From: Chloroflexota bacterium | GTDB lineage: Bacteria; Chloroflexota; Anaerolineae; JAAEKA01 | DNA length: 35,928 nt | Assembly (NCBI GenBank): GCA_034717495.1 | Contig: JAYELL010000019.1 | Location: forward strand, 1-35,928 | Direction of reading: 5' to 3' | The notes under the pieces: generated by a model | What the model was told of the DNA's origin: nothing | Database searches by the model: none | Seen by the model: the letters and a program-made list of their open reading frames with translations, nothing else | Shown here: in pieces, positions 2,469 through 29,197 of the stretch | Numbering within the stretch: the stretch's first letter is position 1 | How the letters are laid out: each line of letters begins with the position of its first letter | Made by a program: the position numbers and the translations under genes

Positions 2469-2469
2469 T

Positions 2470-2487: not shown

Positions 2488-2504
2488 CATACAGGAGGTG
2501 CAAA

Positions 2505-8018: not shown

Positions 8019-8039
8019 GATTTGATAAGAGCTTCGGGA

Positions 8040-8879
8040 TCACATCTTCACCGCGCCCGATGTCAGCCCCGCAATAAACGTGCGCATCGAGAATATAAAT
8101 AGCAGCACGAGTGGTATCGAGGCGATGACCGAGGCTGCCATGGCTTGCCCAGGCTCGGGGCGGACATTGATCTGAGCGTCAGTGAATGCCACGAGCCTCT
8201 GCGCCACGGTCTGCAAATCGGGGTCACTGAGAACAAGAGAGGGCCAGGCGTAATCATTCCAGTGGAACCATACTTCAAAAATCGCCATAGCGCTCATGAT
8301 GGGCCAGGAGAGGGGCAGAACAATGTGTGCATAGATCGACAGATGCCCGGCCCCATCCAAGCGGGCGGATTCAAACATCTCCTCGGGGAGTGTTGCGAAA
8401 AATGTGGTCAGGACGAAAATGACGAAACTTTGTTGAGCGGCGTAGGGGAGGATCACCGCCCACAGCGTATTTAGCACGCCCAATTTCACGATCAGCATAA
8501 AGCTTGGGACCAGGATCACCGCAGACGGGATAGCAAGCACCCCCAGGACAAAGAAGAAAAGCAGTTGACGCCCAGGAAAGACATAGCGCGAAAGTGCGTA
8601 AGCGGTGAGGGAGCCAAATAAGAGAATAGCAAAGGTTGAGATACCGATGATAATGAGATTGTTGAGAAAAGATTGGGCCATCACCCCCCAGGCAACTTCA
8701 TAATTATCGAAGTGAAAGGGTAGACTGGGCGCCAGGGGATTCATCATGTACTGGTTGAAATCTTTTCCCGAAATAATCAGCATGATCAGGATGGGCAATG
8801 CTGTGGGAATGGCCAGAAGCAAGAGCGCCAGATAGGAAAGATAGTAGCCGCGCCAGTGTCTGTGTAGTCGGTGCATCAT
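8040..8879 (-). CDS. Sugar ABC transporter permease (CUT1, MalG-like)
   Basis: Inner-membrane subunit of a carbohydrate importer. It has about six hydrophobic segments (YYLSYLALLLLAIPTALPIL, LNNLIIIGISTFAILLFGSL, LLFFFVLGVLAIPSAVILVP, LWAVILPYAAQQSFVIFVLT, then two more) and the cytoplasmic EAA loop (EMFESARLDGAGHLSIYAHI...LPLSWP) that docks on the ATPase. It ends in GLTSGAVKM, typical of MalG homologues (GLTAGAVKG). The start is preceded by AGGAG; two consecutive ATG codons allow either. It lies 7 bp after permease 1. No ATP-binding subunit is in this operon, so a shared MsmK/UgpC-type ATPase elsewhere is likely. Confidence 0.95.
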   Translation of the reverse strand: MMHRLHRHWRGYYLSYLALLLLAIPTALPILIMLIISGKDFNQYMMNPLAPSLPFHFDNYEVAWGVMAQSFLNNLIIIGISTFAILLFGSLTAYALSRYVFPGRQLLFFFVLGVLAIPSAVILVPSFMLIVKLGVLNTLWAVILPYAAQQSFVIFVLTTFFATLPEEMFESARLDGAGHLSIYAHIVLPLSWPIMSAMAIFEVWFHWNDYAWPSLVLSDPDLQTVAQRLVAFTDAQINVRPEPGQAMAASVIASIPLVLLFIFSMRTFIAGLTSGAVKM

Positions 8880-8886
8880 ATCACTC

Positions 8887-9828
8887 CTACAAAGCCTCGT
8901 TTGATTCGCGTGTCACACGCATCTGTATCATTGTCACCAAGAAGACAACGAAAAACAGAACAACGCCGATAGCGGATCCATAGCCGAGATTGAAATCACG
9001 TGAGATCGTATGGTACATCCTTAGTCCGGGCAGCATACTGGCCCAACCTGGCCCACCATCCGTCATAATCAGGGGTAACTCAAAACTGCGGAGCCAGAAG
9101 ATGATCGTGAGCATTACCAGCAAACGAATCTGGCCGCGCACCAGAGGCAGTTCGATACGAAAGAAGCGATTGATGCTGCTGGCCCCATCGACAACCGCCG
9201 CATCCAGCAATTCCTGGGGGATGCTTTGCAGGCCGGCCAGGTAAATCAGGAAATTGAGACCCGCCACCCAGGGGAATCCGACAAAAGCCAGAGCGCCCAA
9301 CACGGTGTTGCGATCGCCTAGCCATGCTCGGGTAATACTCTCCAATCCGATAGCGTCGAGCATGATGTTGATTCCCCCATCAACGGAGTACAGCCACCGC
9401 CAAACCAAAATTGTAACGACGACCGGCACGATCATCGGGAACACAAAATACACGCGCAGCCAATATTTGATGCGCTGGTGGGGCAGATGGAAAATCAAAG
9501 CCGCCGCCGCAAGAGGCATTGTGATCACCACGCCCACATTGAACAAGGTCAGGAAAAGCAGGTTTCCGGCTGATGCGATTAGCCGTTTATCGTGGATAAG
9601 TTTGTCGTAATTGGCCAGGCCTGCCCAACTGATATTCTTGACATCCCAGTAAGTGAACGAGTATACAAAGCCGGAAATGGCAGGATAATAGAAGAAAACG
9701 AGAATCAGGACAATGGTGGGAAAAGCAATAAAGTAGAGGGGCCAATGGCGTTTGATCTGGCGGACAGGAGAACGCCGTGGCCTGGTTGGCGCCTGGGGAA
9801 TCGGTTCGGGAGGCAGTTGCACAGCCAT
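8887..9828 (-). CDS. Sugar ABC transporter permease (CUT1, MalF/UgpA-like)
   Basis: Partner permease of the same importer. The 313 residues begin with a basic Pro-rich cytoplasmic tail (PPEPIPQAPTRPRRSPVRQIKRH), then WPLYFIAFPTIVLILVFFYYPAISGFVYSF, a typical first helix plus periplasmic start for this family, and further helices. The EAA loop reads ELLDAAVVDGASSINRFFRIELPLVRGQI. The C-terminal helix is GSAIGVVLFFVVFLVTMIQM. It follows the binding-protein gene after a 117-bp gap containing a strong stem-loop. Substrate follows from the operon: probably an oligosaccharide, with no finer call possible. Confidence 0.95.
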   Translation of the reverse strand: MAVQLPPEPIPQAPTRPRRSPVRQIKRHWPLYFIAFPTIVLILVFFYYPAISGFVYSFTYWDVKNISWAGLANYDKLIHDKRLIASAGNLLFLTLFNVGVVITMPLAAAALIFHLPHQRIKYWLRVYFVFPMIVPVVVTILVWRWLYSVDGGINIMLDAIGLESITRAWLGDRNTVLGALAFVGFPWVAGLNFLIYLAGLQSIPQELLDAAVVDGASSINRFFRIELPLVRGQIRLLVMLTIIFWLRSFELPLIMTDGGPGWASMLPGLRMYHTISRDFNLGYGSAIGVVLFFVVFLVTMIQMRVTRESNEAL

Positions 9829-9857
9829 AACACCAGCTCGTGTCCCTAAATAGGTGA

Positions 9858-9894
9858 GGGGGTAGCAGGTTATAAAACGAGACCCGCTACCCCC
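9858..9894 (-). promoter_or_regulatory. Strong stem-loop between binding-protein and permease genes
   Basis: GGGGGTAGCAGGT (9858-9870) pairs with ACCCGCTACCCCC (9882-9894) over 13 positions with one mismatch and an 11-base A/T-rich loop. No T-run follows on the minus strand, so it is not a classical terminator. In sugar ABC operons such intercistronic hairpins commonly protect the 5' transcript and keep binding-protein mRNA in excess over permease mRNA; that role is inferred here. Confidence 0.75.
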
Positions 9895-9945
9895 ATGTTG
9901 CTTCAGTCAATCTGTCAGGATATCATCACGTAAGCGAACCATCCA

Positions 9946-11550
9946 TTACCATTCATCGGCATTCCATTCAGGATGTTCTCGAATCAGTTTCTCTACATCC
10001 TCATCCATGATAACCTGCAACTCTTCCATGGCTTCTTCCAGAGTAAGGGCGTCGCCCATGTAGTCCTGTAATAGCTTGCTGGTCAGCGCTCCGACGTCCT
10101 GGCCAAGCGTATGGACGTAGAAGGCGCGGATGCCATTCTTGAAAGCGCCCGGCTCGAAGAAACCACGCATTTGTTGCCAAGTCTGTGGCTGGTCGGGATA
10201 CACTTCCTCGATGGAGGTGCCAGGCTCGAAACAGGGTACAGGCTGATGGTCGCACCAGTACTGGAGTTGTTCCGGCGCTGTTGTGTATTGGACCAGGTCT
10301 TTCGCTACGTCCAGCTTTCCATCCTCCACCGTGGTCGCGGGAATCATGAGGAATTGGCTGCCGCTGGCGGCGGCGCCAGTGTTACCCACGCGGCGGATAA
10401 AGACATCGTCAACCAGGTCACTGGTTTCCGTTGTCAATGGCGGCTGGTAGAAGGTGCCCCATTCGAAATCAATGTCAGGGTTGCCTGCGACGCGGCCGAT
10501 CCAGAGATTCATCATATGTTTCATGGCCACTTCACCCTGAACCCAGGGATCTCCTTCTGCCGGGGGCGCCAGGAAGCCCTCTTGCCACATAGGCGACCAG
10601 TCTTTGACGATCTTCCAGCTTTCCATGAAACGTGGATCATCTGCCCGGAATTTGCCGGTCTTGATGCAACGGGTCATCTCTTTCTGGCTGATGTTGTCGA
10701 AAGGCTCATCAGTATCACATTCCCGGATCACATCATCCATGAGCTGATCGACGAAGGCATAAATCGGCCAGTCGATTAGCCATCCCAATGGCCCCGCCAT
10801 CGGCTGATTGAACGGCGTGTATCCGGCATCCTTGATCTTTTGCTGGATGTCCATGAATTCGGCCCAGGTTGCAGGTGGCTCCACACCGACTTCGTCGAAA
10901 ATGTCTTTGTTGTACAAGAACGTGGTTACGCCCGTATCGCCTGTGAGTGTCGGACCCACAAAGTACGTCTCACCGTCGGCTCCACTCCACTCCCGGAGGA
11001 GTTGCGCGTCCTGCGGGAAATCTTCCCACCAGGTGGCGTTGTCGCTGTAGGGGTTGGGCTGTTGCATGTCTTCGGCGAAGTCATAAACCAGCTCGGGGTC
11101 TTTGTAATCATCTCCGGGGAAATAGATCATAACGACATCAGGCAGGGTGCCGGCAAGCATGTGGGTCTTGATCCAGGTGAAGCGTTCGGGCACGCTGGCG
11201 CCGCCGATGAGTTCGTACTTGAGATCGATGTTGGGATGCATCTCGTTCCACTGTTGCAAGATCTCGTGATAGGAGTAGGCGGAATGCTGCGGATCGGCAT
11301 CGATCTGCCCCCAGATGGCCATGGAGAGTTCGCCCTCATACTCGTCGGCGGCTGACTTGGGCTCTTCTGGTTCGGGTGGCGCTTCGGGCTCGGCGATTGG
11401 CTCCGGCTCTGCTTCCGCTGGCGCTGCGGTTGGCTCGACCGCTGGCGCCTCTGTCGCCTGGCCGCCGCAAGCCGCCAGGCTAAGCGCCAGCACCGCTATC
11501 AACATCCCGATAGCCAAAATGGTGAAAAAGCGAGATTTCTGAGATGGCAT
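9946..11550 (-). CDS. Extracellular sugar-binding lipoprotein of ABC transporter (family 1 SBP)
   Basis: Captures the sugar outside the membrane and delivers it to the two permeases. The chosen ATG (MPSQKSRFFTILAIG) has AGGAGG at ideal distance; the longer frame adds 16 residues without a ribosome site. Residues 1-30 form a lipoprotein signal with lipobox LAAC followed by GGQ. A Pro/Glu/Ala-rich linker (about residues 32-65) tethers the protein. The mature domain starts at YEGELSMAIWGQ and shows family features such as PERFTWIKTHMLAGTLPDVVMIYFPGD and TTFLYNKDIFDEVGVEPPATWAEF. At 534 residues it is longer than the usual 420-460, which may reflect an oligosaccharide ligand. First gene of the minus-strand operon that continues to the sulfatase. 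Confidence 0.94.
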   Translation of the reverse strand: MPSQKSRFFTILAIGMLIAVLALSLAACGGQATEAPAVEPTAAPAEAEPEPIAEPEAPPEPEEPKSAADEYEGELSMAIWGQIDADPQHSAYSYHEILQQWNEMHPNIDLKYELIGGASVPERFTWIKTHMLAGTLPDVVMIYFPGDDYKDPELVYDFAEDMQQPNPYSDNATWWEDFPQDAQLLREWSGADGETYFVGPTLTGDTGVTTFLYNKDIFDEVGVEPPATWAEFMDIQQKIKDAGYTPFNQPMAGPLGWLIDWPIYAFVDQLMDDVIRECDTDEPFDNISQKEMTRCIKTGKFRADDPRFMESWKIVKDWSPMWQEGFLAPPAEGDPWVQGEVAMKHMMNLWIGRVAGNPDIDFEWGTFYQPPLTTETSDLVDDVFIRRVGNTGAAASGSQFLMIPATTVEDGKLDVAKDLVQYTTAPEQLQYWCDHQPVPCFEPGTSIEEVYPDQPQTWQQMRGFFEPGAFKNGIRAFYVHTLGQDVGALTSKLLQDYMGDALTLEEAMEELQVIMDEDVEKLIREHPEWNADEW

Positions 11551-11641
11551 GGTCAATCCTCCTGATTCTGGGGTTGTTCCTCGGGGCGAGGTAAACAAAT
11601 GGTTGGATATGAAATCATCATCCTTAAATTACATCAATACC

Positions 11642-11762: not shown

Positions 11763-11906
11763 ATGCACGGCAATCCCCTCACCATCCCACTGGAATCGGA
11801 AACAGCTAGCTCCGTCACATTGGAGCGGTTGGAGCAGTACGACGTCATTCGCGTGCAGATAGTCGATCAAGATCAATTTAACACTGGAGACATAGAAAGA
11901 TGCTAG
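11763..11906 (+). CDS. Possible 47-residue leader/small protein overlapping the DeoR start
   Basis: An open frame of 47 codons begins at an ATG only about 9 bases after the predicted transcription start and ends in TAG 7 bases inside the DeoR gene. Its product (MHGNPLTIPLESETASSVTL then RLEQYDVIRVQIVDQD) is soluble, acidic and not low-complexity. I recognise no family. No Shine-Dalgarno is present, so it would be translated nearly leaderless, perhaps coupling to the repressor. It may equally be a chance frame in the leader, or a decayed fragment of a longer protein. Confidence 0.3.
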   Translation: MHGNPLTIPLESETASSVTLERLEQYDVIRVQIVDQDQFNTGDIERC

Positions 11907-12673
11907 CGCCTGAACGCCATAACCAAATCGAAGCGATACTTCGAGACAAACAAACGGCGAGCGTTGTCGAACTCAGTGAAAGGTTGAAGGTGTCGCCCGT
12001 GACCGTGCGCCATGACCTCAAGCAAATGGCGGAACAGAGGCGGTTGGCGAGAACCCACGGCGGCGCTACGGCTATTGATCTTCAGCTAAACGGCGAGTTC
12101 AGTTTCGGGCAGCGTAGGATGTTGAAGTCCACCGAAAAGCAGCGCATCGGTAAACTGGCTGCAAGCCTGATCCGCCCCGTGGAATCGATCCTGCTGGATT
12201 CCAGCACCACAGCGCTGGCGGTGGGAGCAGCCATCAAGCGCCACCCCGATTTGGGCGACCTGACCATCGTCACCACGGGTGTGCATACCGCGCTGGCTGT
12301 GACAGGAACGCCCGGCATCACCACCATTCTAGCGGGCGGCATTCTACGAGACGTGACCGGCTCCATCACCGGGTCGCTGGTGATCGATGTGCTGGAAAAG
12401 ATCAACATCCACAAATCCTTCCTCGGCGCCTGGGGCCTGACCTGCGAGGCCGGATTGACGGACACCAGTCTGGAGGAGGTGGAACTCAAGCAGCGCATCA
12501 TCGCCCGCTGCCCGGAAGTGATCATCGTCATCGATAGCAGCAAGTTGGGGCGAGTAGCGCTGGCAAGCTTCTCTTCAATCGAAGAAATCTCCCGGCTCGT
12601 GACGGATGATGGAGCACCACCGGAAATTATCCGAGAGATCGAAGCACGAGGCGTGGAAGTGCTCATTGCATGA
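11900..12673 (+). CDS. DeoR-family transcriptional repressor
   Basis: Sugar-phosphate-responsive repressor. Residues 1-57 form the DeoR winged helix-turn-helix (ERHNQIEAILRDKQTASVVEL, then SPVTVRHDLKQM and LARTHGGA). Residues about 75-235 form the sensor domain, with LDSSTTALAVGAAI and TTGVHTALAVTG matching the NagB-fold phosphate-binding loops, then the AGGILRDVTGSITG block and IVIDSSKLGRVALASF near the end. Length (257) is standard. GGAG lies about 10 bases upstream of the ATG. It is divergent from the sugar ABC/sulfatase operon and upstream of the rhamnosidase operon, so it probably controls one or both, lifted by a phosphorylated sugar intermediate. Confidence 0.95.
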   Translation: MLAPERHNQIEAILRDKQTASVVELSERLKVSPVTVRHDLKQMAEQRRLARTHGGATAIDLQLNGEFSFGQRRMLKSTEKQRIGKLAASLIRPVESILLDSSTTALAVGAAIKRHPDLGDLTIVTTGVHTALAVTGTPGITTILAGGILRDVTGSITGSLVIDVLEKINIHKSFLGAWGLTCEAGLTDTSLEEVELKQRIIARCPEVIIVIDSSKLGRVALASFSSIEEISRLVTDDGAPPEIIREIEARGVEVLIA

Positions 12674-12848: not shown

Positions 12849-13652
12849 ATGCCAAACCTCCACCACATCCCTTCCGATAACTTGACCATCGTCGCCGAAA
12901 CCTTCGGTTCTGGCCCGCCCATCATCTTTGCGCACGGCTTGACCGGCAATCGCCATGTCACCCGCAAGCAGTTCACCCCCCTGGCCAACCACTACACCAT
13001 TGTCATATTCGACCAGCGGGGCCACTGCGACTCGACCGCTGTGACTGATCCCGCCCTGTATGATGCCGAACACATGGCCGCTGATATGGCGGCGGTGATG
13101 GATACGCTGGGCATCGAACGAGCTATCGTCGGGGGCGAGTCCATGGGCTCGGCTACCACGCTGATGTTCGCGCTGCGCTGGCCCGAGCGGGTCGAAAAGT
13201 TGCTGCTCACCGCCCCGGCCTTTGGTGATAAACCTAATCCGGCGGTGGCAGACATTCAGGCAATGGGAGAGGCCATTGAAGAAGTGGGCATCGACGCCTT
13301 CCTGGCCGCCTCCGCCGTCAGCCAACGCGATGAATTAGGCTGGCCGCCAGAGGTCATCCAGGCCGTGGCCGAGATGCAGGGATCGCACGAGACGCACAGC
13401 CTGGCCACCGCCTGCAAGGCCGTCATCGACTGGACGCTGTTCGACGATCTGAATGTGCTGTCCGCCCTCGCCATGCCCGTATGCATCATCGCCTGGGACG
13501 ACGACAACCTGCACCCGCTCTCGCTGGCTCAGCGCATGGCCGAAAGCTTCCCAAACGCCCGCCTGGAAATGCTGCCCTCGCTCATGGCCCTGTTCCTCAC
13601 GCCCGAAATCATCGGCGAGATTTACGGGCGGTTTCTGGAAAGCGTCGATTGA
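12849..13652 (+). CDS. Alpha/beta-hydrolase fold protein
   Basis: A 267-residue soluble hydrolase-fold protein, probably an esterase or lactonase acting on a sugar derivative, by context. Visible elements are the oxyanion-hole segment IIFAHGLTGNR, IVIFDQRGHCDST after strand 4, the nucleophile elbow VGGESMGSA (Ser near residue 100), and a late strand CIIAWDDDNLHPL that supplies the acid. The final segment, where the family normally carries the catalytic His in a GH pair, reads MLPSLMALFLTPEIIG and has no His; the only nearby candidate is the His of DDDNLHP. The protein may therefore be weakly active, use another His, or not be a hydrolase. First gene downstream of the 12680 promoter. Confidence 0.85.
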   Translation: MPNLHHIPSDNLTIVAETFGSGPPIIFAHGLTGNRHVTRKQFTPLANHYTIVIFDQRGHCDSTAVTDPALYDAEHMAADMAAVMDTLGIERAIVGGESMGSATTLMFALRWPERVEKLLLTAPAFGDKPNPAVADIQAMGEAIEEVGIDAFLAASAVSQRDELGWPPEVIQAVAEMQGSHETHSLATACKAVIDWTLFDDLNVLSALAMPVCIIAWDDDNLHPLSLAQRMAESFPNARLEMLPSLMALFLTPEIIGEIYGRFLESVD

Positions 13653-13718
13653 TACGGGAAACATGTTGCGTGTTGCGTTGAACGTTTTCCCCTCCGACCT
13701 CCGAACTCTGATCTCCGC

Positions 13719-13745
13719 AGGGCAACCGCAAGGTTGCGCCCCTAC
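13719..13745. repeat. Dispersed palindromic repeat unit
   Basis: GGGCAACC, a short centre, then GGTTGCGCCC form an imperfect dyad, followed by CTAC. It resembles dispersed intergenic palindromes common in Chloroflexota and other environmental genomes. It sits 15 bases upstream of the rhamnosidase ATG, following a run of degenerate CCGACCTCCGAACTCTGATC-type repeats. Confidence 0.5.
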
Positions 13746-13759
13746 CGAACTCCAATCTC

Positions 13760-16276
13760 ATGCCCCCTACCCGCTTCAAACCCCGCGCCGAATGGATCTG
13801 GCGAGAACGTGGCGTTCACGCTGTGCCTTTTGGAACGCCCGGATTCTCCGCTGAAGATGAGCGTAATCGCTACATCTATTTCCGGCGTGAATTCACCGTC
13901 GAAGACAATGTGCAGAGCGCCCAAGTCCACACTTCTGCTGATGGCCGCTATCAACTTTATGTCAATAGCAAATTGGTAGGTCGTGGTCCTGCCCGCTGCA
14001 ACACCACCGAGCAACAGGTGGACCCCTACGATTTACGCCCCTATCTTCAACCCGGTCCCAACGTCATCGCTGCACTCGTGCATTCGTATGGGCAGCCGAC
14101 CGCTTGGTACGAACCACCGTTGTGGGAACACAAACTCGCCTTTGGTTGCGGTGGCTTCTTCCTGCAGGGCGACGTGGTGATGCAGCAGGATGGTCGAGAA
14201 ACAGTACAGCGCCTGGACACAAATGCGTCCTGGCGGCATCTTGTTTCTGAGGCATGGAAACAAGATGCACCTTCTGGCAGTCTGGGCTTTCTGGAACTTT
14301 TCGATACTCGTTTAGCGCCGGTGGGCTGGAGCGGGATCGAGTTCAACGCCGCCGATTGGACGTCCGCCGAAGTGTTGCGGGTGCCAGGTCGCCATTTTGT
14401 CAACGACATCACACCCTTTACTCTCCTGACCGAGCGTGACATCCCGCCGCTGTTCGAGGAAGAACGTTGGCCGGAAGCAGTCCTACTGGTGGGAGAAGTG
14501 AAGAATGCAGCGGGCGTGAGGGGCATTGCCAGCCGCCTGGAGGCGGAGCCTCTGGTCGAGCCAGACGCCTGCCAGGTGCAGGAGATCGACCAGGCCATCG
14601 TTGCCGAGAGGCTGGCTGAGATCAGCACCACGCCGGGGCGCAGCGTTTCGGTCGTGTTGGATTTCGGTCGCACGGTCTCGGGACGAGTGCGTTTCGACGT
14701 AGATGCTCCGGCGGGAGCGATGGTCGATTTCACCTACAGCGAACGGCTGCAAGAAGATGGCCGGGTGCTGATGCACAAGGGCATTCCCGGTTTCGATGAA
14801 CGCCCGGCTCATCAGGTCATCCTGCGTGAGGGCCGACAAAGCTGGGAAGCGTTCGAGTGGGCGGGGTTCCGCTATCTCCAACTCACGTTCCGGCACTGCC
14901 TGCAACCCCTGCGAGTGCACGGCATCAGCCTCAATTTCACATCCTACCCGGTGCAAGAACGAGGCCGCTTCAGTTGCTCAGACGATCTGCTCAATCGCAT
15001 CTGGCAAACCGGCGCTTACACGCTGCAACTCTGCATGCAAGACGCTTACATCGATTGCCCCAGTCGCGAGCAGCGCCAGTGGATGGGCGATGCCTACGTG
15101 CAAGTCCTGATCAATTTCATGTCCTTTGGCGATGCCCGACTTGCCGCCCGCTTGCTGCGGCAGATCGCCCAGTCACAGCGACCGGATGGCATTTTGATGA
15201 TGTGCGCTCCCGGCGATTTCGCCATCGGCAAGTTCATTAACATCCCCGACTTCAGTTTGTACTGGCTGATGACGCTGGGCCGTTATGTCGAATACAGCGG
15301 AGACATCTCCCTGGCGTCTGATCTCTATCCCACCATTCTCAAACTCCTGTCCTGGTTCGAACAATTCCTGGATAATGACCTACTCACGGACATGCCCCAC
15401 TGGGTTTTCATCGATTGGTCAAACCTGGACAAGCAGGGCCAGGTAACGGCGCTGAACGCCCAGTTTGTCGCCGCCCTGCGCGCAGCCGCCCATCTGGCGA
15501 TCTTGCTCGACCATCCCGCTGACGCCGACCGTTGGCATGTCCTCGCTGATCGAGTGGCGACAGTTATCAACGAGCAGTTGTGGGACGATAAGCGGGGCGT
15601 TTACGTGGATGCCCGGCGACAGGATGGCCTGAGCCGCCGGGTCAGTCAGCAGACCAACGCCGCCGTCATCGCCTTCGATGTAGCCCCTCCCGAACGCTGG
15701 GAGCGCATCCTCAACACCATCATGGACACCGAGCGCCTGGTGTTGACTCGTGTGGGAGAGCACGATCTCAGCATAGTGGCTTTCGATGAAGAGCACGATG
15801 TCGTGCGGGCCCAGCCGTTCTACTCCCACCACCTGCACCGAGCACTGAGCAAAGCTGGCCGACAGATGCAAATGGTCGGGAATATCCGGCGACGGTGGGG
15901 TGAAATGATCGAGAAGGGGGCGCAGTCCTGGCGGGAGACATGGCAGATCGATGATCTTACCAGCCTGTCCCACGCCTGGGCCGGAACCCCGACCTTTGAT
16001 CTATCCACCGAAATTTTGGGCATAACCCCCACCAGTCCTGGTTTTTCGACCTTCCGTGTCGCCCCACGCCCCGTCGACCTGACCTGGGCGAAAGGCGCTG
16101 TCCCCACGCCACAAGGCGATATCGAAGTGGCATGGAGGAAAAAGGATGCAACATTCACGTTGAAGCTGAACGTCCCGACAAATACCAGAGCAGAGGTATT
16201 CTCTCCATTCGATGGCTCCAGCTTGATGTGTGAAGAGGGAACCCATGAGCTTGATTTCCCAAATGATAGATTATGA
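13760..16276 (+). CDS. GH78 alpha-L-rhamnosidase
   Basis: Inverting glycosidase releasing terminal L-rhamnose. The 838 residues show the GH78 layout: N-terminal carbohydrate-binding beta-sandwiches (EWIWRERG, YIYFRREFTV, ADGRYQLYVNSKLVGRGPAR), a second sandwich (VLDFGRTVSGRVRF, WAGFRYLQLTF), then the (alpha/alpha)6 barrel with DCPSREQRQWMGDAYV, whose Asp432 and Glu437 match the catalytic acid positions of Bacillus RhaB, and a C-terminal domain starting SLSHAWAGTPTFDLSTEILG. No signal peptide is present, so it acts on imported rhamnosides. The stop overlaps the next start codon as ATGA, showing translational coupling. Confidence 0.93.
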   Translation: MPPTRFKPRAEWIWRERGVHAVPFGTPGFSAEDERNRYIYFRREFTVEDNVQSAQVHTSADGRYQLYVNSKLVGRGPARCNTTEQQVDPYDLRPYLQPGPNVIAALVHSYGQPTAWYEPPLWEHKLAFGCGGFFLQGDVVMQQDGRETVQRLDTNASWRHLVSEAWKQDAPSGSLGFLELFDTRLAPVGWSGIEFNAADWTSAEVLRVPGRHFVNDITPFTLLTERDIPPLFEEERWPEAVLLVGEVKNAAGVRGIASRLEAEPLVEPDACQVQEIDQAIVAERLAEISTTPGRSVSVVLDFGRTVSGRVRFDVDAPAGAMVDFTYSERLQEDGRVLMHKGIPGFDERPAHQVILREGRQSWEAFEWAGFRYLQLTFRHCLQPLRVHGISLNFTSYPVQERGRFSCSDDLLNRIWQTGAYTLQLCMQDAYIDCPSREQRQWMGDAYVQVLINFMSFGDARLAARLLRQIAQSQRPDGILMMCAPGDFAIGKFINIPDFSLYWLMTLGRYVEYSGDISLASDLYPTILKLLSWFEQFLDNDLLTDMPHWVFIDWSNLDKQGQVTALNAQFVAALRAAAHLAILLDHPADADRWHVLADRVATVINEQLWDDKRGVYVDARRQDGLSRRVSQQTNAAVIAFDVAPPERWERILNTIMDTERLVLTRVGEHDLSIVAFDEEHDVVRAQPFYSHHLHRALSKAGRQMQMVGNIRRRWGEMIEKGAQSWRETWQIDDLTSLSHAWAGTPTFDLSTEILGITPTSPGFSTFRVAPRPVDLTWAKGAVPTPQGDIEVAWRKKDATFTLKLNVPTNTRAEVFSPFDGSSLMCEEGTHELDFPNDRL

Positions 16277-17565
16277 CAATTCAAACCCGACTGGCGCAAC
16301 ACATCCTGGAAACCCCACTGTGCGACACCCACGAACATCTGTGGAGCGAGCAGGAATTCGTCCGCCAGGAGCCTGACATCTTGCAGACCCTGTTTTCCGG
16401 AGGATACGTCACGGCCGATCTGGTTGTAGCGGGCGCATCCCCAGAAGATGTGGAGGCGCTGGTGGATAGTTCGGATCCCAACATTGGCGCGCGCTTTCAG
16501 CAGATCGAACGAGCCTGGAAAGCCGTTCAGCACACGGGCTACGGCGAAGCCGTCCGTATCACCGCCCAAAAGCTCTACGACATTGACGACATAAACTCAG
16601 AGACGCTGGAAGCCGCCCAAGTCATGCACACAACATATCTTGGTCCGGGTAAGCGTTTGCTGCTACTACGAGATGTCGCCAATCTCGATCATGTACAGAT
16701 CGATGATTTTACCTGGTCGTGTCTACCGGATGCAGCGGGGCCGGATTTCTTCTTTTCCGACATCTCATGGTGGAAATTCTGCTGCGGCACGCCTGAAATC
16801 GACCTTTTACAGGAGGAAATCGGTGTCGAAGTGGTTGGTCTGGCCTCCCTGCGACAAGCGATGGAAATCATTTTTGAACGATTCGCCAGCACGGCCATTG
16901 CGGTCAAGGCCCAGCACGCCTACAATCGAACGTTGCAGTGGAGAGAACGCAACGATGCCGAGGCATCCCGAGCGCTTTCCGTCTATCTTCAGAAAGGAGC
17001 TGAGTTCAGCACGGAAGATAGCCTTTGTCTGGGCGATTGGTGCTGGGCCAGAGGCGTCGAATTGGCGACCGATTACGATTTGCCGTTCAAGATACACACC
17101 GGATACTATGCCCATTACGGACATATGCAAACCAGCTACATCCAAAGTGGACACTTATCCGACCTGCTGATCAAGTATCCCGACCCCCGATTTGTGCTCA
17201 TGCACGCTGCCTATCCCTACAGCAACGAATTGGTGGCGCTGGCGAAGCATTTTCCCAATGTGTACGCCGACCTGTGTTGGGCATGGAGCATCGATCCATA
17301 CAGCGCCTCCGATTTTCTGCGGCGCTGCATCCATGCCGTGCCTGCAAACAAGATATTCGCTTTTGGCGGCGACACCCGGTGGCCCGGAACGGTGGTCGGC
17401 TATGCGGCCCAGGCCCGCATCTGCCTCACGCGAGCGCTCCAAGCCGAAATCGACGATGGTTTCCTGAGCGAAGATGACGCCATCGCCCTTGCCAACCGAT
17501 TCATGAGAGATAATCAGTATGACTGCTTTCGGTTGGACGAGAAAAGAGCTACGATGCAAACGTGA
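16273..17565 (+). CDS. Amidohydrolase-superfamily (amidohydrolase 2) metal-dependent hydrolase
   Basis: A TIM-barrel hydrolase or isomerase/lyase of 430 residues. Metal-binding elements are visible in order: CDTHEHLW after strand 1 (HxH), KIHTGYYAHYGH in the middle, FVLMHAAYPYSNELV later, and FAFGGDTRWPG carrying the Asp after strand 8. Such proteins hydrolyse lactones or amides or decarboxylate aromatic acids; the length and fused helical N-terminal insert also recall uronate-isomerase relatives. By position (ATGA-coupled to the rhamnosidase) it probably acts on a sugar-derived lactone or acid, an inference only. Its 3' end is 52 bp before the cyclodeaminase homologue. Confidence 0.85.
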   Translation: MTIQTRLAQHILETPLCDTHEHLWSEQEFVRQEPDILQTLFSGGYVTADLVVAGASPEDVEALVDSSDPNIGARFQQIERAWKAVQHTGYGEAVRITAQKLYDIDDINSETLEAAQVMHTTYLGPGKRLLLLRDVANLDHVQIDDFTWSCLPDAAGPDFFFSDISWWKFCCGTPEIDLLQEEIGVEVVGLASLRQAMEIIFERFASTAIAVKAQHAYNRTLQWRERNDAEASRALSVYLQKGAEFSTEDSLCLGDWCWARGVELATDYDLPFKIHTGYYAHYGHMQTSYIQSGHLSDLLIKYPDPRFVLMHAAYPYSNELVALAKHFPNVYADLCWAWSIDPYSASDFLRRCIHAVPANKIFAFGGDTRWPGTVVGYAAQARICLTRALQAEIDDGFLSEDDAIALANRFMRDNQYDCFRLDEKRATMQT

Positions 17566-17582
17566 CCTAAGTTCTCTTGACA

Positions 17583-17604
17583 TTCACAATTCACAATTCA
17601 CCAT
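17583..17604 (+). repeat. Short tandem repeat (ATTCACA-type, 7-bp unit)
   Basis: ATTCACAATTCACAATTCAC is three tandem copies of a 7-base unit, located just upstream of the cyclodeaminase homologue. It is one of several intergenic micro-arrays in the window, each with its own unit. Confidence 0.6.
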
Positions 17605-17617
17605 CAGGAAAACGCCC

Positions 17618-18598
17618 ATGTCCCTCTGGCTCAACCAAAATGATGTCCAATCTCTACTCACCATGCCCGACGCTATCGACGCTGTGGAAGAGGCTTTCCG
17701 CCAACTGGCTGAAGGTGACGCCATGCTGCCCCAGCGGGTCGGTGTTGGCGTAGCCAAACATGGCGGCGGCGGTGCGGCCATGCCCGCCTACGTTGGTGGC
17801 GAAGTCGACGGTCTTGGCGTCAAAGTCGTCACTCTGTTCGTGAACAACGCCAGGCTCGGCCTACCGGTCGTCAATGCCACCATTTTGTTGCTCGACCCCG
17901 CCACCGGCCAACTCCGGGCTGTCATGGATGGCGGCTACCTGACGGCAGTGCGCACCGGGGCGGTTAGCGGTGTGGCCACCAACTATCTGGCCCGTGCGGA
18001 CGCCTCGATTGTCACCATTTTCGGCGCGGGGGTGCAGGCCCGCAAGCAACTGGAGGCCATGTGCGCCGTTAGGCCAATCGCCAAAGCGCTCGTGGTCAAT
18101 GTGCAGCCCGAAACCGCCAAACGTTTTGCCGATGAGATGAGCGCTTCTCTTGGCGTCGGCGTACGACCCGCCGCCGATACCCGCAATGCCGTCGAGGCTG
18201 CCGACATCATCATCACCGCCACTAGCGCCCACGACCCGATTTTCGACGGAAGTTGGGTGCAGCCGGGAACTCATATCAATGCCATCGGTTCGCATGCCCC
18301 GGCCTGGCGAGAACTGGACACCACCACGCTTCAGCGCGCCAAGGTCATCGCCGACCAAGCCACCGCCTGCCTTGCCGAAGCGGGCGACCTGATCATCCCC
18401 ATCCAGAAGGGAGCGATCACGGAAGAGCACATCTACGCCGAACTTGGCGAGATCGTGGCCGGGAGCAAACCAGGTCGGGAGGGTGACGACGAAATCACCT
18501 TGTTCAAATCAGTCGGTCTTGCCATCCAGGATGTGGCGGTCGCCGCTCTGGTGTATCGAAGGGCGCAAGAAGCAGGCGTCGGCCAGATACTTGGCTGA
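17618..18598 (+). CDS. Ornithine cyclodeaminase/mu-crystallin family protein
   Basis: NAD(P)-dependent imine-forming or imine-reducing enzyme. The ATG giving MSLWLNQNDVQSLLTMPDAI is chosen because it restores the family's 320-330-residue length (326 here); the longer frame translates an intergenic repeat. Family signatures are LPQRV near residue 45, GLGVKVVTLFVNNARLGLPV, MDGGYLTAVRTGAVSGVATN (substrate-binding Arg-Thr-Gly-Ala) and the Rossmann loop FGAGVQARKQLEAM. Members include ornithine cyclodeaminase, alanine dehydrogenase and delta1-pyrroline-2-carboxylate reductase, and specificity cannot be read here. With RidA and a dipeptidase homologue downstream, handling of a reactive imine or enamine from amino acid catabolism is a reasonable inference. 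Confidence 0.92.
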   Translation: MSLWLNQNDVQSLLTMPDAIDAVEEAFRQLAEGDAMLPQRVGVGVAKHGGGGAAMPAYVGGEVDGLGVKVVTLFVNNARLGLPVVNATILLLDPATGQLRAVMDGGYLTAVRTGAVSGVATNYLARADASIVTIFGAGVQARKQLEAMCAVRPIAKALVVNVQPETAKRFADEMSASLGVGVRPAADTRNAVEAADIIITATSAHDPIFDGSWVQPGTHINAIGSHAPAWRELDTTTLQRAKVIADQATACLAEAGDLIIPIQKGAITEEHIYAELGEIVAGSKPGREGDDEITLFKSVGLAIQDVAVAALVYRRAQEAGVGQILG

Positions 18599-18642
18599 TA
18601 ATCGTTCGCTTGTTTTCTCACTCCAACAGGAGCCCCAGCCGT

Positions 18643-19059
18643 ATGGACAAACAACAAGTCGAACAGATTTTCGCCGCGTTTGAAGCCAAAGACATTGAGA
18701 CCGTCATGGCTCAGTTCGCCGATGATGCTGTCGTTACAGATCCCCACTATCCTATTCCAGAAATGGTCGGGAAGAAAGCCATCAGGCAGGGCTTTGAATG
18801 GGCGCTGGGGAATATGGAGCAGGCCGGATTCAAGGTGCTCCGCCTCTGGTCTGACGGCGATTCAGGTGCAGTCGAGATGGACACGCACCATGTGTTCAAG
18901 GGCGGGATGGAGATGAAATTTACGCAGGTCTTCGTGATCGAGATACGGGATGGCCTCATCACCCGCCTTCAATCCTTCGGCCCCTATCGTCCGGGCGGTG
19001 TAAGCGGCATGATGCTGAAGACAGTCGGTTTCTTCTGGCGACGGAAGGGGGAAGGATAA
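18643..19059 (+). CDS. NTF2-like (SnoaL-type) small protein
   Basis: The 138-residue alpha+beta cone-fold protein starts at MDKQQVEQIFAAFEAKDIET, preceded by CAGGAG. Typical SnoaL/NTF2 elements are MAQFADDAVVTDPHYP, VGKKAIRQGFEWAL and the beta strands GAVEMDTHHVFKGG, KFTQVFVIEIRDGLITRLQSF. Such proteins bind small hydrophobic ligands or catalyse isomerisation or dehydration. No catalytic residue set is recognisable. It sits between the cyclodeaminase homologue and RidA with short gaps (44 and 4 bp), so it is probably co-translated with them. Confidence 0.82.
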   Translation: MDKQQVEQIFAAFEAKDIETVMAQFADDAVVTDPHYPIPEMVGKKAIRQGFEWALGNMEQAGFKVLRLWSDGDSGAVEMDTHHVFKGGMEMKFTQVFVIEIRDGLITRLQSFGPYRPGGVSGMMLKTVGFFWRRKGEG

Positions 19060-19063
19060 GGCG

Positions 19064-19447
19064 ATGAAGCAATCCATCCAGACCGATCAGGCGCCGGCGC
19101 CCAGAGGTCCTTATTCACAGGGCATTGTAAGCGAAGGCCGGCTGCTGTTTGTTTCTATGCAAGGCCCATTTGATCCTGTCACTGGCGAAGTCAGCGGCGA
19201 GACTTTCGAAGAGCAGGCGACGCAAGTTTTCGCCAACATCCAGGCCATTGTGAAGGCTGCCGGTGCTTCGCTGGCGGATGTGGTCAGGGTGACGGTGTTT
19301 CTGGCCGATTGGCGGGATTTCGCTGCTATGAACGACATTTACTCGGCCATTTTTCCTTTACCCTACCCGGCGCGCACCCCCATCCCTGGCGTTCCTCCCG
19401 GCGTGCTCATCACTGCCGAGGCTATCGCCATCCTCCCCCTCCACTAA
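19064..19447 (+). CDS. RidA/YjgF family enamine/imine deaminase
   Basis: Hydrolyses reactive 2-aminoacrylate-type imines to keto acids. The 127 residues show APRGPYSQGIVSEGRLLFVS, TFEEQATQVFANIQAIVKAAGASLADVVRVTVFLADWRDFAAMND, and PARTPIPGV with the substrate-binding Arg of the family. Length matches typical RidA (about 128). It begins 4 bp after the NTF2-like gene stop. The neighbouring cyclodeaminase homologue would form or reduce an imine, so RidA may act on the same intermediate. Confidence 0.93.
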   Translation: MKQSIQTDQAPAPRGPYSQGIVSEGRLLFVSMQGPFDPVTGEVSGETFEEQATQVFANIQAIVKAAGASLADVVRVTVFLADWRDFAAMNDIYSAIFPLPYPARTPIPGVPPGVLITAEAIAILPLH

Positions 19448-19457
19448 TCAAGGAACC

Positions 19458-20450
19458 ATGACTATGTCCTCAAGTATTGCTTCGCAACTACATCAAGAAA
19501 GCATCATCATCGACGGCCTCAATGCCAGTTGGTTCCCCGATCCGCGCGTGCTCCAGCACTTGCACGAGGGCGGTGTCACAGCGGTGAACGCCACCATCGC
19601 CGCCTGGCACGACCCCCTGGAAACGCTCGACCTGTTCAGCGCCCTCCTGCCGCTGTTCGAGCAGCACAGCGACATCATCATGCAGGTCGAGTCGGTGGAA
19701 GACATCGCTGGGGCCAAGGAAAGCGGTCGGGTGGGCATGATCCTGGGCTTTCAGGACACTGCCCCCATTGCCGACAATTTGGGACTGCTCAGTGTTCACT
19801 ACAAGCTGGGCGTGCGTATCATCCAACTCACCTACAATCACGAAAATCTGGTGGGTTACGGATGCCAGGCCCCAGAAGATGGCGGGTTGACGGGCTTTGG
19901 CCGGGAGGTGGTGGCCGAGATGAATCGTCTGGGCATCTTGGTGGATGTATCACACTGCGGCCCGCGCACCACCCTGGAGGCCATCGAAACCTCAACAACA
20001 CCCATCGCCATCACCCACGCCAATCCACTCGCCCTGCTCGATATGCCCCGCAATAAAAGCGACGAGGTCATCCGGGCGCTGGCGGAACGGGGTGGCGTCA
20101 TCGGCGCGGTGCAATTTCCGGCTATGGTCACTCGCCAGTTTCCGGCCACGGTCGAGACTTACGTCGATGTCATCGACCACCTGGTGCGTGTGGCGGGAAT
20201 CGATCATGTGGGACTGGGGCCGGATTTCATGGAATACATGCCAGCGGAAGTAGCGGCGGCAGCACTAAAAGGACTGCCACCCGAGGCGATCAAGCAGTTT
20301 GCCGCCATCCCTCCCATGCAGGATTTCGAAACGGCTGCAAAGTTCCCCAACGTCACGGCTGAGCTACTCCGGCGGGGCTACGCCCCAGAGGACGTAAAGA
20401 AAATCATGGGTGGAAACTGGTTGCAATTGTATGAAGAAGTCTGGACTTAA
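19458..20450 (+). CDS. Membrane dipeptidase homologue (peptidase family M19) with altered metal site
   Basis: A 330-residue TIM barrel related to renal dipeptidase. It has GFQDTAPI, GVRIIQLTYNHENLVGYGC, GILVDVSHCGPRTT, ITHANPLALLDMPRNKSDE (His ligands) and DHVGLGPDF near the end. The usual first metal motif DGHxD reads DGLNAS, and the bridging acid segment carries Gln (GFQD) where renal dipeptidase has Glu, so at least one zinc site is missing. A known M19 subgroup with this change exists, and its substrates are not established. Last gene of the operon, 10 bp after RidA. It may cleave an amino acid amide, dipeptide or lactam; this is inferred. Confidence 0.85.
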   Translation: MTMSSSIASQLHQESIIIDGLNASWFPDPRVLQHLHEGGVTAVNATIAAWHDPLETLDLFSALLPLFEQHSDIIMQVESVEDIAGAKESGRVGMILGFQDTAPIADNLGLLSVHYKLGVRIIQLTYNHENLVGYGCQAPEDGGLTGFGREVVAEMNRLGILVDVSHCGPRTTLEAIETSTTPIAITHANPLALLDMPRNKSDEVIRALAERGGVIGAVQFPAMVTRQFPATVETYVDVIDHLVRVAGIDHVGLGPDFMEYMPAEVAAAALKGLPPEAIKQFAAIPPMQDFETAAKFPNVTAELLRRGYAPEDVKKIMGGNWLQLYEEVWT

Positions 20451-20964: not shown

Positions 20965-21437
20965 TCATATCCAGTGCGGAGCTTCACCGGCATCGCACAG
21001 CCAGATCAGCATATCCCCTTCGTCACGGTTATCCCAGGCGTAGTAGGGAACGGCCTTGAACGTAACAGGGGATGTGGCAGCCGGCGTGTTGCGGTAGAGA
21101 GCCCCTTCCCATCCAGTTTCTTCAGCTTGCAGCGCGTCCCCTGTGATTGTGACGACGGCACCCAGCAGGTCTTCCTCGAAGGCGTCTTGCAGGTGACCCT
21201 GTCCGGGCAGGCAAATGCCGTGGACGTTACCTGGGTTATCAGTGCCTTCGAGACAGTAAACGATAGGGCCGCGCTGTATGGCCACGCGCTTATTGTTCAT
21301 ACGTACCTGCGGATGCGCATAGACTCGTTCAACCGGCATCGCCAGTCGCAGGGTGATGTAGCATAGATATAGTTGCCCAAGGATGCAAACAAACGCACAA
21401 TATTGGGAGGGCAGCAGGCGCAATCATACCATTCCTG
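20965..21437 (-). pseudogene. GH127 beta-L-arabinofuranosidase fragments, internally deleted and frameshifted
   Basis: Reading on the minus strand, [20 protein letters not shown] (from 21437) is the diagnostic GH127 segment with the adjacent Cys pair, one of which is the nucleophile in Bifidobacterium HypBA1. After GNYIYA the frame is lost, and in another frame the C-terminal domain resumes with [37 protein letters not shown] and KAVPYYAWDNRDEGDMLIWL to a stop at 20965. Roughly 100-200 residues between the blocks, and the entire N-terminal barrel, are missing. The enzyme would have released L-arabinofuranose, consistent with the glycan theme of the region. It is certainly inactive. Confidence 0.85.
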
Positions 21438-21710
21438 CCGGTGCCCGGCCGTGAGTAAGTGGTCCTGGATGCCCCGGACAATCAAGGGGGCAAAGTTACT
21501 GGAGATATTGTCCACGATGATGCCGACCATGGAACTGTGTTTTGCGCGCAAGCCCCGCGCGAAGAGATTTGGATGGTAACCCATTTCTTGCGCTAGCTTG
21601 ATGATGCGTTGTTTGGTCTCTTCGCTGAGGGGAGGGTTGCTCCCTGTCAAGGAGCGAGATACGGTAGCCACAGAAACACCAGCGACGTCGGCTATTTCGG
21701 GATCGAGCAT
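21438..21710 (-). pseudogene. LacI-family regulator, N-terminal fragment fused in frame to GH127 debris
   Basis: The frame gives a LacI helix-turn-helix and hinge ([18 protein letters not shown], then [20 protein letters not shown]) and the first strand-helix of the sugar-binding domain ([20 protein letters not shown]). At LLTAGHR the expected effector domain ends and GH127 sequence follows without a stop. The normal residues before IADVAG are also replaced (MLDPE; upstream GRLDYDYLF). About 90 of the usual 330-340 residues remain. The fused protein keeps a DNA-binding domain but no effector domain. Whether it still binds DNA near the GRE promoter, 55 bp away, is unknown. Confidence 0.85.
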
Positions 21711-21764
21711 GAACAGATAGTCATAGTCCAACCGCCCCTGTACCCGCACCGCCGAGTCGCAACT

Positions 21765-22027: not shown

Positions 22028-22195
22028 GTTGACTTGTCTACTTGTTTACTTGTCTACTTGTCTACTTGTCTACTTGTCTACTTGTTGACTTGTCTACTTG
22101 TCTACTTGTTGACTTATCTACTTGTTTACTTGTCTACTTGTTTACTTGTTTACTTGTCTACTTATCCACTTGTCTACTTGTTTACTTATCTTCTT
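22028..22195 (+). repeat. 8-bp tandem array (CTTGTCTA)n in the GRE leader
   Basis: About 21 head-to-tail copies of CTTGTCTA and one- or two-base variants (CTTGTTTA, CTTGTTGA, CTTATCTA, CTTATCCA). Because 8 is not a multiple of 3, the translation repeats every 8 residues (STCLLVYL, LTCLLVYL, STYPLVYL), hydrophobic and without stops. One frame of the array is in phase with the GRE. A related imperfect stretch occurs 190 bases upstream. It is a minisatellite, not a CRISPR: there are no spacers. Confidence 0.92.
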
Positions 22196-22213
22196 CTTAT
22201 CGGAGATACAAAA

Positions 22214-24619: not shown

Positions 24620-24627
24620 AAATCGTG

Positions 24628-25563
24628 ATGCGTGCGATTAGCCTTACCGGCACAACCTTCAACATCCAACGCTTCAGCACCGAGGATGGCCCTGGCATTC
24701 GCACTACCCTCTTTTTCAAGGGCTGCCCGCTGCGTTGCGCCTGGTGCCACAACCCGGAAGGGATCTCTCCCCGGCCGGAGCTTATGTGGTATGACGTACG
24801 CTGCATCGGCGCCGGCGACTGTCTGCGCGTCTGCCCGGAGGATGCGCTGGAGCTGACTTCCCAGGGAATGCGCATTGATCGAGCCAGGTGCACTGTTTGC
24901 GGTGACTGCGCCGAAGCCTGTCCATCGGCTGCGCTGGAGATCATTGGCCGGGAGTGGACGCCGGAGGCTCTGTTCGCCGAAGTACAGAAGGACGCCATCT
25001 TCTACGAAACCTCTGACGGGGGGGTCACCCTCTCAGGCGGTGAGCCGATGGCCCAGGCCGACTTTATCCTGGACCTGGCCCGTCTGTGCCGCGGAGCGGG
25101 CATCCATGTGGTTCTGGACACTTGCGGGGCTGCAAGCTGGGCGCGCTACGAGCAGGCGCTATCCCTGGTGGATCTGGTATTCTTCGATCTCAAAATCTTT
25201 GACGGGAAGCGCCACCGGTCCGCCGCCGGCGCTGACAACGCCCACATCCTGGAAAACGCCCGCCGCATCGCCGCCGCCGGAATGCCGATGTGGATTCGCA
25301 CGCCTATCATCCCCGGCTTCACCTCCGACAAAGCCAACATCGCCGCCCTGGGCGACTTCATCGCCGCCGAACTGCCCACGGTCGAACGCTGGGACCTGCT
25401 GGCCTACACCAACCTGGGCCAGGCAAAATACCATCGCCTGGAGCGACCTTACGCCCTGGAGGGAGCCCCGCTCCTGACCCACACCGAAATGGAAGCGCTG
25501 CACGCCGTCGCCGTCCAACGGGTTCCCGTCGCCGTCTGGTCGGGAGCCACGCGTGACAAATAA
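24628..25563 (+). CDS. Glycyl radical enzyme activating enzyme (radical SAM)
   Basis: Generates the glycyl radical on the upstream enzyme using S-adenosylmethionine and an iron-sulfur cluster. Cluster Cys33, Cys37 and Cys40 lie in GCPLRCAWCHNPE, preceded by FSTEDGPGIRTTLFFK. The insert between residues 50 and 100 is ferredoxin-like, as in activases of dehydratase-type GREs: RCIGAGDCLRVCPEDAL and RCTVCGDCAEACPSAAL. In the first motif the second Cys is replaced by Ala (GCC codon 24811-24813); the second motif is complete. SAM-binding blocks GGVTLSGGEPMAQ and FFDLKIFDGKRHR follow. ATG is chosen, although a GTG 3 bases earlier is possible. 311 residues, typical size. Confidence 0.94.
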   Translation: MRAISLTGTTFNIQRFSTEDGPGIRTTLFFKGCPLRCAWCHNPEGISPRPELMWYDVRCIGAGDCLRVCPEDALELTSQGMRIDRARCTVCGDCAEACPSAALEIIGREWTPEALFAEVQKDAIFYETSDGGVTLSGGEPMAQADFILDLARLCRGAGIHVVLDTCGAASWARYEQALSLVDLVFFDLKIFDGKRHRSAAGADNAHILENARRIAAAGMPMWIRTPIIPGFTSDKANIAALGDFIAAELPTVERWDLLAYTNLGQAKYHRLERPYALEGAPLLTHTEMEALHAVAVQRVPVAVWSGATRDK

Positions 25564-27807: not shown

Positions 27808-27871
27808 TGTTTCGTTCCTCGTGCCTTGCAGCGGGCTGAGAGCGGGGAGATCCTGCCTCTGCTTGCACCCA

Positions 27872-29038: not shown

Positions 29039-29197
29039 GGCATCGCCTCCTGAAATAGAGTTGTGGTTCGTTTTTTCCGCAGAGTTCCGCGAACCTCCGG
29101 CTCCGATCTTTTCTGATGTCTGATCAGCGTTCATCGACGTTTATCAGCGGTTCATTCAGGTCTGCGGTTACCTTTCGCGGCAGGGCTCATCGAATCT

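Follow-up and report, generated by a model that had tools for sequence, protein, structure and literature searches.

A recurring NTF2–RidA–M19 gene block in a predicted rhamnoside operon of Chloroflexota

Introduction

Why should a gene cluster built around a predicted α-L-rhamnosidase also encode RidA and a member of the M19 (membrane dipeptidase) family? The question is raised by a stretch of DNA from a Chloroflexota bacterium (the window: bases 1-35928 of the 49225-base contig C19, in an assembly of 5.0 Mb), in which seven co-directional genes at 12849-20450 on the + strand encode an alpha/beta hydrolase, a glycoside hydrolase family 78 (GH78) enzyme, a PF04909 amidohydrolase, a protein of the ornithine cyclodeaminase/mu-crystallin (OCD) family, a SnoaL/NTF2-like protein (NTF2), RidA and M19. 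A DeoR regulator gene precedes this run, and a carbohydrate ATP-binding cassette (ABC) importer is divergent. Successive intergenic spacings downstream of GH78 are -4, 52, 44, 4 and 10 bases, and the four closely spaced genes that an earlier note had described after GH78 and the amidohydrolase are all present on the + strand, with gaps of 44, 4 and 10 bases. That note took these four for a single imine-chemistry module; we find that three of them, NTF2, RidA and M19, recur as a block in what read as rhamnoside operons of other genomes, and that OCD is a local addition.

Which genes recur together

Each protein was searched against 199 genomes of the same class; a phylum sample comprised 400 genomes, and a scan of genome contigs gave 14 M19 loci. 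GH78 is matched in 7 of the 199 class genomes (E ≤ 1e-100) and exceeds 50% identity in three of the 199, its own, G154 (54%) and G097 (56%), the other four standing at 33-36%. Both of these non-self genomes, which belong to the same class but to families other than that of the window, hold NTF2, RidA and M19 in window order: G097 has a contiguous GH78-NTF2-RidA-M19 on a contig that ends within GH78, and G154 reads GH78-AMP ligase-NTF2-RidA-M19. M19 is matched in 71/199 class genomes (E ≤ 1e-30), with at least 55% identity in its own genome, G097, G162, G154 and G168, and in 31/400 phylum genomes (E ≤ 1e-60), including G206 and G325 at 60-61%. GH78 also adjoins M19 in L080 and L081, two named Chloroflexi metagenome-assembled genomes.

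Ten non-self loci carry an M19 at least 54% identical to that of the window (G097, G162, G154, G168, G206, G325, L080, L081, L082 and the partial L093), and in these stretches M19 has GH78 beside it in 4/10, NTF2 in 3/10 and RidA in 2/10, with an alpha/beta hydrolase on the contig in 3/10. The contigs of G097, G168, G325 and L081 are short or cut, and absences there hold only for the visible stretch; the GH78-to-M19 interval is fully visible in all four GH78-linked cases. These four adjacencies appear to lie beyond chance, for which a simple proportion gives ~0.002 per case (two rare genes within ~5 kb in a 5-Mb genome).

Neither OCD nor the PF04909 amidohydrolase is found in any of the same ten stretches (0/10 each), and the amidohydrolase is not found in the conserved GH78-NTF2-RidA-M19 clusters. 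The conserved linkage that the earlier note envisaged thus holds for GH78-NTF2-RidA-M19 in G097 and G154, and for GH78-M19 in L080 and L081, but extends to neither OCD nor the amidohydrolase, and a conserved four-gene unit that includes OCD falls away, the complete set being seen in this window only. Because both genes are missing near the close M19 relatives, we describe the four-gene "module" as two parts, the conserved block NTF2-RidA-M19 and an OCD that is local.

The surroundings of OCD elsewhere bear on the proposal that OCD, NTF2, RidA and M19 make up a single imine pathway for an amino acid or lactam freed from a rhamnoside, which we regard as improbable. It would account for the tight gene spacing, and is in keeping with the resemblance of OCD to a cyclic ketimine reductase and with two kinds of pair: RidA lies beside OCD in 3/29 non-self OCD loci (1.5-kb flanks; L173, L175 and L177, in three class genomes), a separate recurring linkage, and an OCD-M19 pair occurs in one of the 14 scanned loci (L091). 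It sits poorly with the absence of OCD near close M19 relatives and with its reciprocal, NTF2 or M19 lying within 1.5 kb of OCD in 0/29 non-self loci. OCD is matched in 123/199 class genomes (E ≤ 1e-40), with no match at that cut in G097; the OCD homologues of G154 sit on contigs other than the cluster contig. The amidohydrolase is matched in 18/199 class genomes (E ≤ 1e-40), and relatives stand with a sugar-type ABC system (L165) or with sulfatase-like and enolase-family genes (L166, L167).

Predicted release and use of L-rhamnose

The catalytic (6-hairpin) domain of GH78 scores 129.7 bits against PF17389, above the curated cut-off of 24.5. Its nearest solved relative is 2okx, rhamnosidase B of Bacillus sp. 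GL1, and D432, E437 and D444 align with the catalytic-loop acids of that structure; 2okx is distant from the window enzyme, and the base Glu in the WRETW motif, E726, is gapped against it in the HMMER alignment but aligns without a gap with the WER Glu of 6i60. The catalytic roles of the 2okx and 6i60 residues in this comparison are our assumption. These site motifs are retained in close relatives, and from family, nearest structure and site residues we infer that GH78 releases L-rhamnose.

The relatives' clusters point the same way. In G097, M19 is followed by a DeoR gene, a ribose/rhamnose-type ABC system and the L-rhamnose isomerase RhaA. The G154 cluster opens with the homologous importer, DeoR, an alpha-L-fucosidase, a xylose-isomerase-like barrel, an alpha/beta hydrolase and a URO-D-family protein, and continues with a fusion of class II aldolase and short-chain dehydrogenase/reductase (SDR), an FGGY kinase, GH78, AMP ligase, NTF2, RidA and M19; its aldolase-SDR fusion is consistent with the bifunctional RhaEW described in PMC3870299. 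L080 holds an alpha/beta hydrolase, GH78, M19, an FGGY kinase and an aldehyde ferredoxin oxidoreductase, and shares with L081 the order GH78-M19-FGGY kinase, the sugar kinase being the sole candidate rhamnose catabolic gene at these two loci. No rhamnose catabolic genes adjoin the window cluster, and its own genome has FGGY kinases (50-51% identity) on contigs C85 and C103, the latter next to an SDR gene. Since RhaA, sugar kinases and a fusion of aldolase and dehydrogenase occur among the relatives' clusters, one of which shares the importer and DeoR, the locus is best read as a rhamnoside-utilisation operon, in keeping with the rhamnosidase-operon setting given in the earlier note.

The flanking genes travel with the cluster to varying degrees. 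The alpha/beta hydrolase is matched in 3/199 class genomes, its own included (E ≤ 1e-50), and a homologue adjoins M19 in G168, adjoins GH78 in L080 and lies on the cluster contig in G154. Importer homologues (42-49% identity) stand beside the matching cluster in G154 and L170, and DeoR homologues occur at the equivalent place in G154 (47% identity) and next to M19 in G097 (32%). A sulfatase gene also lies in the window, downstream of the importer. The RhaR site of Chloroflexus (TCGAAA tandem repeats; PMC3870299) was considered as a regulatory signal, and its occurrence in the window was judged not beyond chance: the importer-DeoR gap has one exact RhaR-type site and some with one mismatch, with 15 + strand copies across the window. 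The DeoR gene of G154 is preceded by two exact sites, 21 bases apart.

Sugar-utilisation genes of this kind would also be expected of an ordinary rhamnose- or pectin-type oligosaccharide operon, with RidA, the NTF2-like protein and M19 as general metabolite-repair or housekeeping passengers and no dedicated nitrogen substrate. That explanation gains from the L-rhamnose or sugar-kinase genes of the relatives, from the fucosidase of G154 and the window sulfatase, from RidA, NTF2 and M19 being found singly too, and from the housekeeping-like place of the RidA-OCD pair in L173, between tRNA synthetase and S1-domain genes. It is harder to reconcile with the co-occurrence of the rare NTF2 (6/199) and the rare GH78 in both other genomes that have GH78 above 50% identity, and with an order kept across families, hardly expected of passengers; we consider it possible but on the unlikely side.

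Predicted chemistry of the accessory proteins

OCD belongs to its family by PF02423 (299 bits), and the closest solved structure is 6t3e, a Delta1-pyrroline-2-carboxylate reductase, matched over nearly its full length (E 2e-95). The column after the GTHxNAxG motif holds His in the window, Asp in alanine dehydrogenase 1omo, Val in 6t3e and Ser in CRYM, in an alignment whose displayed rows do not include ornithine cyclodeaminase; the Asp following this motif is what we take to be the catalytic residue of ornithine cyclodeaminase. Because the Asp of alanine dehydrogenase is absent and 6t3e is closest, a ketimine reductase appears likelier than a cyclodeaminase. The residues past the GTHINxxG motif differ between the window protein and 6t3e (SHAP in the former, WVGR in the latter). 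The cyclodeaminase homologue of the earlier note is therefore right as to family, and its resemblance is to pyrroline-2-carboxylate reductase more than to cyclodeaminase.

The NTF2-like protein falls in a narrow subfamily with DPHYP ... HHV.KGGM motifs (7-row alignment), matched in the 6/199 class genomes, its own included, at E ≤ 1e-8; two of its five non-self loci (1.5-kb flanks) hold both RidA and M19. Its single-sequence model, with a mean predicted local distance difference test (pLDDT) score of 57.6, was too weak for a structure search.

RidA is matched in 11/199 class genomes at E ≤ 1e-30, a cut under which the G154 RidA (46%) falls, and one of its ten non-self loci at that threshold (1.5-kb flanks) holds all three partners (G097). 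Aligned with E. coli RidA, it retains Arg105 and Tyr17 and has Thr for Glu120, a position that is Met in G097 and Glu in G154 and so is not conserved; R105 is present in 15/16 aligned rows, the window included. The possibility that the catalytic Arg is that of the E. coli "ARLP" motif, lost in the window, was ruled out by the same alignment, in which R105 is the Arg of "PAR" and is kept. Niehaus 2015 (PMC4433059) describes Arg105 as essential in RidA imine hydrolases, and alanine at Tyr17 or Glu120 of the Salmonella enterica protein as having little effect. By the Arg criterion given there (PMC4433059), the window RidA is predicted to be competent as an imine hydrolase. The imine chemistry of the earlier note gains to that extent, and RidA-OCD, OCD-M19, NTF2-M19 and dgc-linked M19 pairs recur away from rhamnosidase genes. 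Separately, at L126 (G153) a RidA gene (46%) lies ~90 bases from a Glu-type M19-family gene (30%), a RidA-M19 pairing outside the Q type described next.

M19 has the fold and family of its namesakes (PF01244; Z ~37-50 to M19 structures), and the altered metal site noticed earlier is confirmed: L21-x-A23 stands in place of His-x-Asp and Q99 in place of the bridging Glu, so that these canonical binuclear ligands are lacking, and H166, H187 and D256 are retained. We assign these ligand roles from renal dipeptidase. Position 99 is Gln in 59 and Glu in 21 of 80 aligned rows, which include overlapping copies, fragments or repeats. Of the Gln rows, 54 are aligned at both His-x-Asp columns and show L, T or V in the first and a non-acidic residue in the second; the other five are gapped at this place. 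As a control, the D-x-H-x-D motif is present in 18/21 Glu-type rows and absent in 3/21, and eight chosen Glu-type rows align it with L21-A23. All rows of a 12-row alignment share H166, H187, D256 and R198. R198, the PRN arginine and presumably the carboxylate binder in canonical enzymes, is found in 79/80 rows, the remaining row being gapped.

The predicted M19 model (pLDDT 91.7) is closest, as is the sequence, to the Pseudomonas aeruginosa amidohydrolase 2i5g (Z 50.5, 37% identity); extra-family matches (phosphotriesterases and others) at Z ~17 indicate an amidohydrolase-superfamily barrel in the model, no more. Canonical M19 structures match at Z ~37-41, as does PvdM (3b40, Z 40.9), presumably an M19 homologue with a tailoring role. 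The PvdM match and the prevalence of Gln for the bridging Glu lend something to the idea that M19 is non-hydrolytic, an isomerase or tautomerase with one metal or none, like such tailoring homologues; as the similar Z of canonical structures gives no preference and H166, H187 and D256 are kept, we think this doubtful.

The altered site marks a widespread subfamily, here called Q-type, to which belong 2i5g and also relatives whose genes stand close to those for dimethylglycine dehydrogenase. A tree built from 28 chosen rows puts the window M19 and the other GH78-linked rows together in a clade of ten rows (100/98). In L085 and L092, where the site reads L-x-I and Q, a single small open reading frame (ORF) separates a Q-type M19 from the dgcAB pair (Oxidored_FMN and DUF3483/CCG genes), and in L158 a Q-type M19 adjoins a DAO-type oxidase gene; both kinds of neighbour carry out imine-forming chemistry. 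We take 2i5g itself to be encoded by a gene preceding dgcAB. Other Q-type relatives stand near peptide-type ABC proteins (L082, L072) or by an amidase (G206, G325), the latter in the order amidase, M19 and a ~195-aa protein without a Pfam match (L156 in G206, 6779-10144; L157 in G325, 598-4325), with NTF2 ahead of M19 in G325 and no rhamnosidase beside that pair. This amidase-linked arrangement gives the M19 clade a second context, without rhamnose genes. L084 was tried as a dgc locus and set aside, dgcAB not being confirmed and a BCCT transporter ~5 kb away being the only link.

Gene coordinates and other features of the window

The features of the locus are collected in Table 1. The importer permeases are named by similarity and position rather than by domain scan, and the NTF2-like start is set at ATG 18643, the mechanical ORF starting at 18610. 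A pattern scan of the + strand gives sigma-70-like sites at 11719 (12/12) ahead of DeoR and 12680 (10/12) ahead of the alpha/beta hydrolase, one internal site at 19795 (9/12), and terminator-like sites at 14122 and 16685, each within a gene; totals are close to shuffled expectation (promoters 7 against 5.6, terminators 6 against 8.5). The scan is compatible with one transcript starting at the 12680 site, and a single transcript is likely.

Table 1. Genes of the predicted rhamnoside locus and its importer
Feature	Coordinates	Strand	Evidence and remarks
Carbohydrate ABC importer	8040..11598	-	permeases 8040-8879 and 8887-9828, solute-binding protein 9946-11598; SBP_bac_1 E 3e-13
DeoR-family regulator	11900..12673	+	PF00455/PF08220
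Alpha/beta hydrolase, probable esterase/lactonase type	12849..13652	+	PF00561 E 2e-26
GH78 alpha-L-rhamnosidase (predicted)	13760..16276	+	PF17389/17390/05592/08531 (four Bac_rhamnosid models)
PF04909 amidohydrolase, local addition	16273..17565	+	E 1.6e-20; 4-base overlap with GH78
OCD/mu-crystallin family protein, probably ketimine-reductase-like, local addition	17618..18598	+	PF02423 E 4e-89
SnoaL_2/NTF2-like protein	18643..19059	+	PF12680 E 5e-20
RidA	19064..19447	+	PF01042 E 5e-30; TIGR00004 115.8 against cut-off 106.25
M19 (membrane dipeptidase family), Q-type, altered metal site	19458..20450	+	PF01244 E 2.5e-81

Beyond the locus, a glycyl radical enzyme and its activating enzyme occupy 22211-25563; the former is under the cut-off of all 12 matched NCBIfam models (best PFL2-3, 518 against 678 bits; HypD, 482 against 1100), and immediately ahead of its gene, at 22032-22195, lie ~20 copies of the 8-base unit ACTTGTCT, an array that extends the mechanical ORF at its N-terminus. 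On the - strand, 20965-21749 holds a GH127 C-terminal piece overlapping an ORF with, by eye, a LacI-like start and a GH127-like end, as if a GH127/regulator pair had been broken or deleted here, and 26506-29134 holds adjoining M20 and M24 (creatinase/prolidase type) peptidase genes, after which the ORF at 29198-30190 has no Pfam match at E ≤ 1e-4. ORF pieces at 2145-2920 and 4675-5229 resemble transposase or integrase remnants by eye.

Discussion

We give an even chance to the overall explanation of a rhamnoside operon with a conserved accessory block acting on the non-sugar half of its substrate. The sugar ABC importer, under DeoR control, would import a rhamnosylated compound, the alpha/beta hydrolase may cleave an ester or open a lactone, and GH78 would free L-rhamnose. 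NTF2-RidA-M19 would handle the other half: RidA would hydrolyse a reactive imine or enamine, the Q-type M19 would process an amide-, peptide- or imine-like intermediate that bears a carboxylate, using no more than one metal, bound via H166/H187, and the NTF2-like protein might act as a small isomerase, hydratase or hydrolase. In this genome a ketimine reductase of the OCD family and a sugar-type amidohydrolase would join them. Support is good for the rhamnoside part, and conserved gene order establishes the block as a recurring one within the predicted rhamnoside operon; a second half that contains nitrogen is what the company of RidA and M19 most readily suggests, and is plausible by guilt by association. 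The best support for it comes from the M19 partners that make or break C-N bonds, namely dgcAB, the DAO-type oxidase, the amidase and the peptide ABC context.

Several observations weigh against this explanation. No NTF2 or RidA lies between GH78 and M19 in L080 and L081, G162 has M19 without the cluster, and in L082 M19 is near a peptide-type ABC system, so that a link to rhamnose is not obligatory for this M19; GH78 has no match at E ≤ 1e-150 in the five other genomes of the order, which makes the cluster patchy. Three of the five non-self NTF2 loci (G011, G085, G184) lack RidA, M19 and GH78 in their 1.5-kb flanks, and of the ten RidA loci eight hold none of the set and one (G153) only an M19-family gene of 30% identity. 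The relatives' FGGY kinases are putative rhamnulokinases only, and the M19 tree groups the GH78-linked rows loosely (window plus G097, 90/49). Loss of the HxD and Glu ligands may have left M19 inactive or with a non-hydrolytic role, and we know of no reaction for Q-type M19 or for the NTF2 subfamily.

A bolder extension, on which we place little weight, is that Q-type M19 forms a new class of mononuclear or metal-free enzymes that would act with RidA on imine or N-acyl intermediates and, recruited with a dedicated NTF2 into rhamnoside operons of this class, serve the dedicated catabolism of amino or amide natural products that carry rhamnose. Whatever its merit, Q-type M19, which ranges from Pseudomonas 2i5g to L083 of Bathyarchaeota, gains a second genomic context besides dimethylglycine catabolism, with imine-forming or imine-hydrolysing partners as the shared denominator, so that its function becomes testable; should the rhamnoside contain nitrogen, the operon would be a dedicated route for dismantling such natural products. 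In the open-licence literature we found no paper combining a rhamnosidase with RidA plus dipeptidase or with peptidase M19, none on RidA with ornithine cyclodeaminase (plus further terms), none on PA5396 with dimethylglycine and none on mononuclear M19; no tested function was found for 2i5g or for the pepD that precedes dgcAB.

Two known systems frame the locus. L-rhamnose utilisation (rha/rhm) operons, including those of Chloroflexus, were surveyed by Rodionova 2013 (PMC3870299), and they share with the window a DeoR-type regulator, ABC uptake and a rhamnosidase. Their RhaA, kinase and aldolase-dehydrogenase fusion match the relatives' clusters, whereas the window cluster has no adjoining rha catabolic genes, and the words "peptidase", "L-PSP", "NTF2", "deaminase" and "amidohydrolase" are absent from the main text of that survey. 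The other system is that of dgcAB: one paper reports that in Vibrio natriegens and P. aeruginosa a pepD dipeptidase gene stands ahead of dgcAB (PMC12093977), and another tabulates the dipeptidase PP_0308 near dgcA (PMC10963909). The P. aeruginosa structure 2i5g shares the Q-type site with the window protein (DGLII and GFQ). In the pepD-dgcAB system, however, the partners of M19 are dimethylglycine dehydrogenase genes, whereas the partner of the window M19 is a rhamnosidase.

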